Shown: positions 33,634 through 35,637 of the stretch, piece after piece
How positions within the stretch are numbered: position 1 is the stretch's first letter
How the letters are laid out: each line of letters begins with the position of its first letter
NCBI RefSeq assembly: GCF_900141995.1
Contig: NZ_FQZA01000004.1
Location: 124,001-188,000 of the forward strand
Reading direction: 5' to 3'
Source of the DNA: Palleronia salina
GTDB lineage: Bacteria > Pseudomonadota > Alphaproteobacteria > Rhodobacterales > Rhodobacteraceae
DNA length: 64,000 nt
The notes under the pieces: model-generated
The model's input: the letters and a program-made list of their open reading frames with translations, nothing else
Told to the model about the DNA's origin: nothing
Databases searched by the model: none
Program-made: the position numbers and the translations under genes

Positions 33634-33657
33634 ACCGCCGTTCGGCGCGACACGAAA

Positions 33658-33695
33658 AAGCCCGGGCAAGCGTTTGCCCGGGCTTATCTTTTTCT
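33658..33695 (+). terminator. Rho-independent terminator of the TRAP operon
   Basis: AAGCCCGGGCAA (33658-33669) and TTGCCCGGGCTT (33674-33685) form a perfect 12-base stem with loop GCGT, followed by ATCTTTTT. It is the clearest intrinsic terminator in the window and separates the TRAP genes from the radical SAM cassette. Confidence 0.93.
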
Positions 33696-33753
33696 ACCCT
33701 GAAATGAATTCTTCCCGAAATTCCCCGCACGCACATTCACCAGTTGCGCGAAT

Positions 33754-33780
33754 CACGCTAAGCGTGTATCCTGTTGATAC
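33754..33780. promoter_or_regulatory. Palindromes upstream of the radical SAM cassette
   Basis: CACGCT-A-AGCGTG (33754-33766) is a perfect 13-base palindrome. It abuts GTATC-CTGTT-GATAC (33766-33780), a second small inverted repeat that includes a TTGATA (33774-33779) resembling a -35 box. The block lies 62-88 bases before the radical SAM start. It is probably the control region, but no dedicated regulator gene is adjacent. Confidence 0.45.
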
Positions 33781-33841
33781 CGATTTTAGACCAGATACCT
33801 GCGTTGCCAATTTTCAGGCAGCCTCGAAAAGGTGATACATT

Positions 33842-34942
33842 ATGCGTGACCTCGATCATGTCGAGGACGTGGAAGAACAAGATGTTCTCGTCCTCAATAC
33901 AACCATGGCCTGCCCCCTCTCCTGCGATTTCTGCTGCTACGGCTGCAATCCCAACCGCAAGGAACGAATGCCGCTGGACCGCGCGCTCGACCTGATCGAC
34001 CAGGCAGCACGGATCCCGTCGATTTCGTCGGTGGGCTTCACCGGCGGCGAACCGTTGATGTTTCGCGACGATTTCGACGCCATGATCGCGCGGCTGAAGG
34101 TGCACGGTCTGCCTTTCACCGTCGCCACGGCCGGCCACTGGGCGGCCGACCCCGAGGCCGCGACGCAAACCGCCGACGCGATGGTCGATGCAGGTCTCAG
34201 GCGGATCAACTTCAGTTATGATGACGCCCATGCCGTCTTTATCCCGCGCGAGGCGATCATCAACGGGGCCAAGGCCGTGGCCCGGCATGGCGTGCCGGTC
34301 TACCTGGTCGGCACCTTCGCCCACCCGGATCGCAAGCTGGAAACGTTCCTGCCCGAACTGTGCGACGTGCCGAATGTGCGGATGTTTTCGAAGGTCATCG
34401 CCAAGGTCGGTCGTGGCAAGAAGGCCGAGGTCGACTACGGGCCCGAGCACCTGCGCAAGGTCGCGACGTGCTATCGGCGCATCCACCACGACATCGTCGT
34501 CTTCTGGGATGGCAAGACGTATCCCTGCTGCTCGACCTTCAACCGGGCGACCCAGGGGATCTGCGTCGGCAACGCCTTCGAGGAACCGCTGCGCGACATT
34601 CGCGACCGGATCGAGGCGTCTTTCCTCATCAGGACCCTCAAGCGCAAAGGGTTCGAGGAATTTCACGGCATTCTGGAAAAGCATGCCCCGGAATTGAATG
34701 CCGCCATCCCGCAATTTCGGGATTATCCGGGCGCGTGCAGTGCCTGCAACGCCATCTTCGCGAAACGCGACATGGCGAAACGGGTGAACGATTTTTTCAA
34801 CGACTTTGAAACCAAAAGCATTCTCGAATCTCTCGATCATCTCGAGAGAATCCTGGGCGACCGTAAAGCTGCCGCGGTCTTCCAGGAATTATCACATTTG
34901 TGCAGCACCCAAGAGGAGACTCACCATGCCCACGGCACGTGA
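33842..34942 (+). CDS. Radical SAM/SPASM protein, probable peptide-modifying enzyme
   Basis: A 366-residue radical SAM enzyme. The [4Fe-4S]-SAM site is the CX3CX2C motif at C24, C28 and C31 (two extra cysteines at 32 and 35), and GGEP is at residues 68-71. A SPASM-like region follows: YPCCSTFN with C229/C230, C241 in GICVGNAF, and C299/C302 in GACSACNAIF, so one or more auxiliary clusters are likely. Such proteins commonly modify ribosomally made peptides by forming carbon-carbon or thioether crosslinks, or by epimerisation. The 3' end overlaps a 73-residue open frame by 17 bases, the likely substrate. AAGGTGA is the ribosome binding site. The reaction is unknown. Confidence 0.85.
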   Translation: MRDLDHVEDVEEQDVLVLNTTMACPLSCDFCCYGCNPNRKERMPLDRALDLIDQAARIPSISSVGFTGGEPLMFRDDFDAMIARLKVHGLPFTVATAGHWAADPEAATQTADAMVDAGLRRINFSYDDAHAVFIPREAIINGAKAVARHGVPVYLVGTFAHPDRKLETFLPELCDVPNVRMFSKVIAKVGRGKKAEVDYGPEHLRKVATCYRRIHHDIVVFWDGKTYPCCSTFNRATQGICVGNAFEEPLRDIRDRIEASFLIRTLKRKGFEEFHGILEKHAPELNAAIPQFRDYPGACSACNAIFAKRDMAKRVNDFFNDFETKSILESLDHLERILGDRKAAAVFQELSHLCSTQEETHHAHGT

Positions 34943-35147
34943 CAAATTGAGAACCCGCCTGACCGAAAGCCCGGCGGCCCGCATCACTTTCATGAACAGC
35001 ATTCTGTCGACCATGCGCGAACAGGGCGTCGACGTGGACAGCGAGGCGGAACTGAAGGACCTCGGGCTGAACATGGACCTGACCGACGGCCACAAGTTCG
35101 TCGACGAGACGGTCGCGTCCACTTTCATCATCACGATCACCAAGTGA
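34926..35147 (+). CDS. Putative RiPP precursor peptide (73 aa)
   Basis: A small acidic-to-neutral protein with no family I recognise. It starts at ATG 34926, with GAGGAGA 8 bases upstream, inside the 3' end of the radical SAM gene. Residues 1-60 look like a helical leader (RDKLRTRLTESPAARITFMN, then EAELKDLGLNMDLTDGHKF). The end, STFIITITK (65-73), is hydrophobic with alternating beta-branched residues and would be the modified core. It has no Cys, Tyr or Trp; Phe is at 22, 58 and 67. Absence of Cys argues against sactipeptides and ranthipeptides. An epimerised or C-C crosslinked product is conceivable. Its role as precursor is inferred from size, coupling and position. Confidence 0.6.
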   Translation: MPTARDKLRTRLTESPAARITFMNSILSTMREQGVDVDSEAELKDLGLNMDLTDGHKFVDETVASTFIITITK

Positions 35148-35154
35148 CGCGGCC

Positions 35155-35607
35155 TTGACCGACAGCTTGTCGACCATATCCGAACCGTCCGACGACCAGC
35201 TTCCGCTGGTCGTCGAGATGGCGTTCGCCATGCGGGCCGAGCGGGGCGAGCCGGCCCCCGCCCTGACCGCCGGCGCGTTGCGGGACCGGCTGCACGGCGA
35301 TGACGCGCCGCGCCTGTTCTGTGCCGTCATCAATCCCGGGTCCACCGGCTACGTCTTGTTCCAGGACACGTTCGACCCGGCGTCTTTCCTGCCCGGCACC
35401 CATCTGTGCGACATCTACGTGCGACCCGAAGCCCGGCGGCACGGGCTGGGCCAGCGACTGCTGCAGCATGTGATCGACCACGCGCGCGCCCGTCGGCGGA
35501 ACTTCGTCTGGTGGGCGACGGCTTCGGATAACGGCCCTATGCTGGCATTGACCGAGGCGATGGGCGGTCGTCACGGCGAAATCCGGTCCTGCGCGATCGT
35601 GCTCTAA
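35155..35607 (+). CDS. GNAT family N-acetyltransferase
   Basis: A 150-residue GCN5-related acetyltransferase. The acetyl-CoA motif A is DIYVRPEARRHGLGQRLLQH (near residues 84-103), with R-R-x-G-L-G for pyrophosphate binding. The preceding strand TGYVLFQDTFD is also typical. The TTG at 35155 begins 7 bases after the putative precursor stop. No good ribosome binding site is seen, so translation may be coupled. Its place in the cassette suggests acetylation of the peptide (N-terminus or the C-terminal Lys), self-resistance, or an unrelated substrate. The family is clear, the role is a guess. Confidence 0.8.
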   Translation: MTDSLSTISEPSDDQLPLVVEMAFAMRAERGEPAPALTAGALRDRLHGDDAPRLFCAVINPGSTGYVLFQDTFDPASFLPGTHLCDIYVRPEARRHGLGQRLLQHVIDHARARRRNFVWWATASDNGPMLALTEAMGGRHGEIRSCAIVL

Positions 35608-35637
35608 CGTCCCTTGGGGCAAGCGGGGCGCTTTGCC

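Follow-up and report, generated by a model that had tools for sequence, protein, structure and literature searches.

What is made by the compact cassette lying between positions 33,754 and 35,607 of a stretch of the Palleronia salina genome, where a radical S-adenosylmethionine (rSAM) enzyme, a 73-residue protein and a GNAT acetyltransferase are encoded in succession? The window analysed here is the whole stretch, 64,000 nucleotides of contig NZ_FQZA01000004.1. An earlier note, drawn from the bare sequence, had proposed a system for a ribosomally synthesized and post-translationally modified peptide (RiPP), and this proposal is now well supported by the occurrence of the gene pair in 10/10 loci and by a fixed core in the small protein. 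As far as its genes tell, the cassette fits the definition of a RiPP system with a radical SAM/SPASM maturase, as both enzyme domains are found and the precursor is conserved beside the maturase. It is probably a laterally moving, minimal leader-core cassette whose core is acted on by a mechanism like that of EpeE (YydG), the epimerase of the Bacillus EpeX/EpeE system. The observations computed for this locus are the gene pairing, the conservation of the core through an exchange of leader, a multi-core precursor, the conservation of two enzyme residues (C230 and D217) and the absence of the cassette from a sister species. The cassette is classed here as a new RiPP family, probably of the epimerase type; the novelty that the earlier note had considered possible holds at the level of the family and not at that of the class.

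The cassette comprises the following features, in window coordinates:

33842–34942, + strand: radical SAM/SPASM enzyme, EpeE/YydG-like, probable peptide epimerase (366 amino acids; PF04055, PF13186, TIGR04078)
34529–34531, + strand: codon of C230, aligned with the proposed hydrogen-atom donor Cys223 of EpeE (invariant in 12/12 family members)
34913–34919, + strand: ribosome-binding site GAGGAGA of the precursor gene, read from the sequence
34926–35147, + strand: 73-amino-acid RiPP-like precursor, leader about residues 1–64, core region 65–73 (homologues beside the rSAM gene in 9/9 other close loci)
35118–35138, + strand: conserved core STFIITI (residues 65–71), ending two residues short of the stop (motif scan; tandem cores in locus L016)
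35155–35607, + strand: GNAT acetyltransferase, possible tailoring or self-protection enzyme (PF00583, 54 bits; counterpart in Bradyrhizobium cytisi)

A conserved pair of genes

The enzyme, with the C24/C28/C31 and GGEP motifs listed in the earlier note, was recovered as a single open reading frame (ORF), and the small protein was also as described there: it is devoid of Cys, Trp and Tyr, has its own ribosome-binding site and starts 17 bases inside the 3' end of the rSAM gene, an overlap through which the two are probably co-translated. One scan of genome contigs yielded nine close relatives of the enzyme in Sphingobium, Sphingorhabdus, Bradyrhizobium, Acinetobacter, Candidimonas and Nitrobacter, which form a 12-member family with the window and two Allochromatium enzymes (32–34% identical to the window rSAM). 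A homologue of the small protein lies directly 3' of the rSAM gene in 10/10 close loci, window included, at a distance of -17 to +34 bases and with all frames open; the same rSAM-then-precursor pair throughout these loci indicates a stable, separate family. The weakest of the nine precursor homologues is that of Candidimonas (blastp E 4e-6 or 3e-6 in two runs against a small database). A profile of the ten precursors gave exactly one match per genome at E 0.1 in the ten genomes, so that a second precursor copy was not seen.

Homologues of the enzyme lacking the small gene had been named in the earlier note as the finding that would speak against the set. The nine close ones are all paired, and in the two Allochromatium loci the core gene lies two genes upstream of the rSAM gene. 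The more distant EpeE-like rSAM loci (L003–L007, L019, L020 and L066–L070) showed the core at no ORF end in the stretches examined, and the rSAM/core pairing therefore defines this family rather than the whole EpeE-like group.

A core that outlives its leader

The STFIITITK end of the precursor, whose conservation beside SPASM genes had been suggested as a check, is indeed conserved: the motif [ST][ST]x[IV][IV]T[IV] stands two residues from the stop in 11/11 single-core precursors. It occurs at 11 of the 3912 non-redundant ORF ends of the collected loci and the window, each time in a single-core precursor; because the motif had been derived from this very family, the scan tests its specificity and does not count as independent evidence. 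More independent evidence comes from two variants of the precursor. In a Nitrobacter metagenome-assembled genome (L016), a precursor of 175 amino acids harbors four cores, SSVVITR, STLVITR, STLVITR and STVVITR, within a 69-bp tandem repeat. On two Allochromatium plasmids, a 61-residue protein ends with CSTSI[IV]TIVY; neither copy has blastp similarity to the window precursor, and the family profile matches the A. tepidum protein at its tail only (positions 49–72, 8 bits). A core that is retained despite a change of leader, and that can be multiplied, is what a RiPP substrate shows. The exchangeability of the leader also makes recognition of the core itself likely, and known radical SAM epimerases appear to be leader-independent (PMC8326336, in the excerpts available).

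The precursor would thereby be organized as an N-terminal leader followed by a short C-terminal core, [ST][ST]x[IV][IV]T[IV]xx. Five leader positions (P16, L27, G34, V35 and D36) are invariant in the 10 close precursors. The predicted fold has a mean predicted local distance difference test score (pLDDT) of 62.8, with residues 51–73 below 50, and this low-confidence model is helical in its N-terminal part. Cys is absent from 10 of the 12 precursors, that of the window counted, and the two Allochromatium ones carry it just before the core. The absence of Cys from the window precursor argues against thioethers, as the earlier note had held, and sets the peptide apart from sactipeptides and ranthipeptides. 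Crosslinks on Phe, also listed there, are disfavoured because the relatives have N, A, S, L or V at the position of F67; a Phe crosslink was rejected on this ground, while epimerisation, from the same list, is favoured by the kinship of the enzyme.

Kinship and probable chemistry of the enzyme

The nearest characterised relative of the window rSAM is EpeE/YydG. Both domains score above their cut-offs (PF04055, 53.1 bits against 29.5; PF13186, 27.7 against 21.5), and the best NCBIfam model is that of the YydG peptide epimerase, TIGR04078, with 114 bits, the next family reaching 42. YydG was also the best family for six further members (73–137 bits), the relatives scanned being five of the nine close rSAMs and one of Allochromatium. 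In a sequence search of the PDB, EpeE came first (E 1e-20 versus 2e-5 for the next). The structural model (mean pLDDT 80) superimposes on EpeE with a Z score of 27.5 and a root-mean-square deviation of 3.1 over 301 residues, followed by SuiB (17.9) and SkfB (17.8), and Foldseek ranked EpeE similarly (1e-19 versus 4.5e-8). The two enzymes are about 20% identical over the fold, and the C-terminal helices of the model extend past the part aligned with EpeE.

Five Cys of the SPASM part, C210, C229, C230, C299 and C302, are invariant in the 12-member family. The set given by the earlier note stands for four of them; its C241 is found in only 2/10 close enzymes, those of the window and B. cytisi, and the invariant C210 had been missed. 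C210, C229, C299 and C302 are likely ligands of an auxiliary cluster. C230 aligns with Cys223 of EpeE and D217 with Asp210, and both are invariant in 12/12 members. Asp210 has a role in EpeE, and PDB titles name the EpeE mutants C223A and D210A. According to excerpts of two reports, EpeE abstracts the C-alpha hydrogens of Val36 and Ile44, and Cys223 is the proposed hydrogen donor (PMC8326336, PMC5682303). Asp occupies the position of D217 in the 12 members and in EpeE, 12 of the 14 other aligned rSAMs having neither D nor E, and D217 is, on this alignment, a more specific mark than the CC pair to which C230 belongs.

By analogy, a 5'-deoxyadenosyl radical would remove the C-alpha hydrogen from at least one beta-branched residue (Ile, Val or Thr) of the core, C230 would return a hydrogen from the other face to give a D-residue, and the auxiliary cluster may help to restore the thiol of C230. 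In the window, the inverted residues would be one or more of I68, I69, T70 and I71. The leader would then be removed by an unlinked protease. Neither an adjacent peptidase nor an ABC exporter gene was found among the window neighbours (dctP-type TRAP-transporter genes and psiE), a result that holds for the window, the neighbours of relatives having been scanned in part; unlinked proteins may act in their place, or the product may stay inside the cell. As candidate roles, the product may be a regulator, a competition peptide or a defence component.

Several observations weigh against this assignment. The YydG score of 114 bits is far under the curated cut-off of 300, which the YydG of Macrococcoides exceeds with 434.6 bits, and two rSAMs outside the 12-member family likewise find their best match in YydG, with scores comparable to or slightly under those of the members (95 bits for that of locus L037, 69 for that of Tropicibacter). 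The tree joins the 12-member family to EpeE/YydG with a support of 81/74 and a long-branch warning from the program. All 26 aligned rSAMs, picked as relatives and mostly without an assigned chemistry, carry the CC pair, so C230 does not prove epimerisation; the Macrococcoides YydG, moreover, has Glu at the position of Asp210. Finally, no gene next to the window cassette would supply a peptidase or an exporter, and an equivalent GNAT is found in only 2/12 cassettes. Because EpeE is the closest relative and shares D217 and C230, yet the CC pair is widespread and the tree support is 81/74, epimerisation of the Ile/Val/Thr core is considered likely and not certain.

Other explanations of the pair

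The same RiPP cassette could perform another radical chemistry on its core with a net loss of two hydrogens, such as the formation of a TvgB-like cyclopropane on Ile or Val, a crosslink from Thr/Ser to Ile or a dehydrogenation. The core is rich in Val and Ile, TvgB converts the Val of repeated TVGG motifs to cyclopropylglycine (PMC9062424, in the part available), and the CC motif is common to many rSAMs with no known product. The window precursor lacks the TVGG repeat, however, the enzyme has the D217/C230 pair equivalent to that of EpeE, and TigE (8vpo), which we take to be a maturase of the cyclopropylglycine type, lies far under EpeE in the fold comparison (Z 13.7 versus 27.5), which makes this chemistry unlikely. 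It is improbable that the small protein is only a conserved partner of an rSAM that modifies something else. Such a role would agree with the partial conservation of its N-terminal region and with the window cassette having no neighbouring gene for a peptidase, an exporter or a recognisable immunity protein, but it accounts poorly for the tail kept in Allochromatium under a replaced leader, the repeated tails of Nitrobacter and the RiPP C-methyltransferase adjoining the precursor gene in B. cytisi, all of which are typical of a core peptide.

An ordinary member of the YydF/YydG group that has lost its exporter, that is a degenerate epipeptide locus, is very improbable: YydG is the closest named family, but the precursor has no match to TIGR04077 at E up to 1, versus 75.8 bits for the Macrococcoides control precursor, and the close loci share a different rSAM-then-precursor pair with open frames in 10/10 cases. 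A wider extrapolation from the EpeE-like reading seems doubtful at present, namely a scattered family of D-amino-acid RiPPs in Pseudomonadota with a leader-exchangeable STxI[IV]TI tail, in which several Ile and Thr, perhaps alternating, would be epimerised and sometimes C-methylated or acetylated; such peptides would act inside the cell for want of a dedicated exporter, and the copy in the Allochromatium CRISPR islands could serve defence. Membership of an anti-phage family was rejected, as PADLOC gave only weak viperin matches for the window rSAM (29 and 26 bits), taken as a generic rSAM signal.

Relation to known systems

The cassette resembles EpeX/EpeE (YydF/YydG; TIGR04077/TIGR04078) by its radical SAM/SPASM-type enzyme with the equivalents of Cys223 and Asp210, by the small precursor encoded next door and by the Val/Ile of the presumed target. 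It differs by its scores with both curated models, by a core of fixed motif that sits at the very C-terminus and by its host, a member of the Pseudomonadota; EpeE-type epimerases have been described with exported peptides of Bacillota (PMC8326336, PMC5682303, in the excerpts available). The epeXEPAB layout is lacking as well, since neither a peptidase nor an ABC exporter is encoded next to the window cassette, whereas the control locus L066 encodes a peptidase, an ATPase and a permease. By these family tests and by its operon layout, the cassette is not an epipeptide proper.

With proteusins, whose PoyD-type epimerases occur with C-methyltransferases (PMC8326336, PMC5682303, again in part), the resemblance is limited to the B. 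cytisi locus, where a predicted epimerase is accompanied by a B12 radical SAM C-methyltransferase. Unlike proteusins, the window precursor has no match to the NHLP or Nif11 leaders, nor to any other Pfam or NCBIfam family at E up to 1. The cyclopropylglycine RiPPs made by TvgB share an rSAM that acts on aliphatic residues of a repeated motif, as may be compared with the Nitrobacter precursor. Among the matches listed from the open-licence PMC literature (titles and starts of abstracts), most of the subscription literature lying outside it, no EpeE-like system was seen in these genera.

If the assignment is right, this compact two- or three-gene family of Pseudomonadota would be a simple system for placing D-residues near the C-terminus of a protein. 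The persistence of a seven-residue core across a leader exchange raises the question of how one enzyme recognises the core without a fixed leader, and with this cassette the function of such peptides in the absence of a neighbouring exporter gene could be put to the test.

The GNAT gene and other tailoring genes

The GNAT gene starts with TTG, 7 bases past the precursor stop, and a clear ribosome-binding site was not seen there by eye. Beside its PF00583 match, the enzyme scores weakly with RimI (27 bits, cut-off 86) and with the RiPP N-acetyltransferase HaaN (18.5 bits, cut-off 250), so that its substrate cannot be named from these families. The B. cytisi GNAT, 40–41% identical, is divergently oriented and lies on the other side of the cassette from the methyltransferase. 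It is the best match to the window GNAT in 68 other genomes (8e-27 versus 9e-9 for the next among the 9 with a cassette; 3e-7 at best among the 59 relatives), and a link between GNAT and cassette is therefore unlikely to be due to chance. The GNAT probably acetylates the product, or the N-terminus of the product after cleavage; of the similar suggestion in the earlier note, the linkage gained moderate support from B. cytisi, whereas the choice of substrate gained none.

In B. cytisi (L011, 4214–6223), a RiPP C-methyltransferase of TIGR03975 follows the precursor directly (636 bits, cut-off 282). This pairing of an epimerase with a C-methyltransferase recalls the biosynthesis of polytheonamide. 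The B. cytisi enzyme is 40% identical to the C-methyltransferase of L037, a locus described below.

A variable site and a scattered distribution

The cassette lies between TRAP-transporter genes, dctP being the last, and a convergent gene of the PsiE family (psiE). The names of the dctP-type genes are presumed from the sequence rather than from a family search, and the gene beyond psiE is presumably lysC. Two further features describe this interval:

33639–35636, unstranded: segment holding the cassette, without counterpart in the sister species (1998 bp; comparison with genome G008)
33658–33685, + strand: intrinsic-terminator-like hairpin in the dctP/cassette interval (12-pair stem, 4-nt loop, T-rich tail)

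In the sister species (G008, flanks 96% identical at the DNA level), only 105 bp separate dctP from psiE (L064, 3558–3662) versus the 1998 bp of the window, and the cassette proteins were not found at this site by tblastn (nothing below E 0.05). In a second species (G004), these flanks enclose a different piece of DNA of about 2.1 kb (L065, 6690–8800), in which no cassette protein was found; a long flavin-monooxygenase-like ORF was noticed there by eye. The dctP-psiE spot thus differs between species, and cassettes may enter and leave the genome there. The cassette would have been either gained as a unit or lost from the relatives; by eye, no transposase was seen among the ORFs listed at the segment ends.

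The perfect terminator that was said to isolate the cassette upstream stands as a terminator-like site with a 12-bp stem, located inside the segment that differs from G008, where a different hairpin followed by T's comes after dctP (by eye). The terminator search returned 3 sites versus 2.1 expected from shuffles, the sole other site on the + strand having a 5-pair stem. Between the hairpin and the rSAM gene, only an A+T-richer 5' region was noted (33754–33841), the GC content being 50% over 33650–33949.

Relatives are rare in all samples, with counts that take in the centre genomes and thresholds that varied between searches. The precursor was found in 1/194 relatives, the window's own genome, and the rSAM at E 1e-15 in 5/394 genomes of the taxonomic family, only G000 being close. 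Matches were also found in 3/94 genomes of the genus of a Sphingobium locus, 2/119 of the genus of an Acinetobacter locus, 3/296 of the family of the Nitrobacter genome (one close, two distant), 1/250 of the family of Candidimonas, 7/151 of the genus of B. cytisi (one close, six distant) and 1/398 of a phylum sample. This scatter over alpha-, beta- and gammaproteobacteria, at 36–56% identity to the window, fits a horizontal spread. Viral or phage carriage was rejected: 19 pattern matches in viral contigs included no relative, and a tblastn search of phages at E 1e-8 was negative. On plasmids, the precursor had no match at E up to 1.

Neighbouring and more distant loci

The Allochromatium cassettes (L017, 3890–6851, on pAt1 of A. 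tepidum; L018, 2408–6760, on pALVIN01 of A. vinosum) consist of the 61-residue core protein, a 190-residue protein of no Pfam family and the EpeE-like rSAM. Both are embedded in type III-B CRISPR islands, close to csm6 and adjoining an EcsC protein, of which the A. tepidum copy corresponds to the PADLOC candidate PDC-S29 (284 bits). A. vinosum carries a further, intact rSAM of 581 residues with weak similarity to viperin (64 bits), and an annotated piece of 87 residues in A. tepidum looks by eye like the end of that protein.

A more distant EpeE-like rSAM (144–155 bits to the family profile) is found in a Bradyrhizobium group of loci (L036, L037 and L072–L075), with a protein of 84–85 residues ending in AG[ST]IHID[IL] upstream of the rSAM gene in 6/6. 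In L037, the only one of these loci scanned, a TIGR03975 C-methyltransferase is encoded downstream (536 bits). These loci are apparently a second RiPP cassette, to which no family name was attached here. On a Tropicibacter oceani plasmid (L019, 5975–10975), an EpeE-like rSAM lies beside a 286-residue hypothetical protein; genes for peptidases and for another radical SAM protein are found in the vicinity. An rSAM equal in length and score to the one of T. oceani occurs in a genome of the host's own family (G403), in keeping with a host that is probably of the Rhodobacteraceae/Roseobacteraceae. Downstream of the two Acinetobacter cassettes, one and the same gene of 446 residues is preceded by a SUKH-1 family protein in L012 (5505–6008), and by a PAAR protein and a 237-residue protein of no family in L013 (5543–6784).
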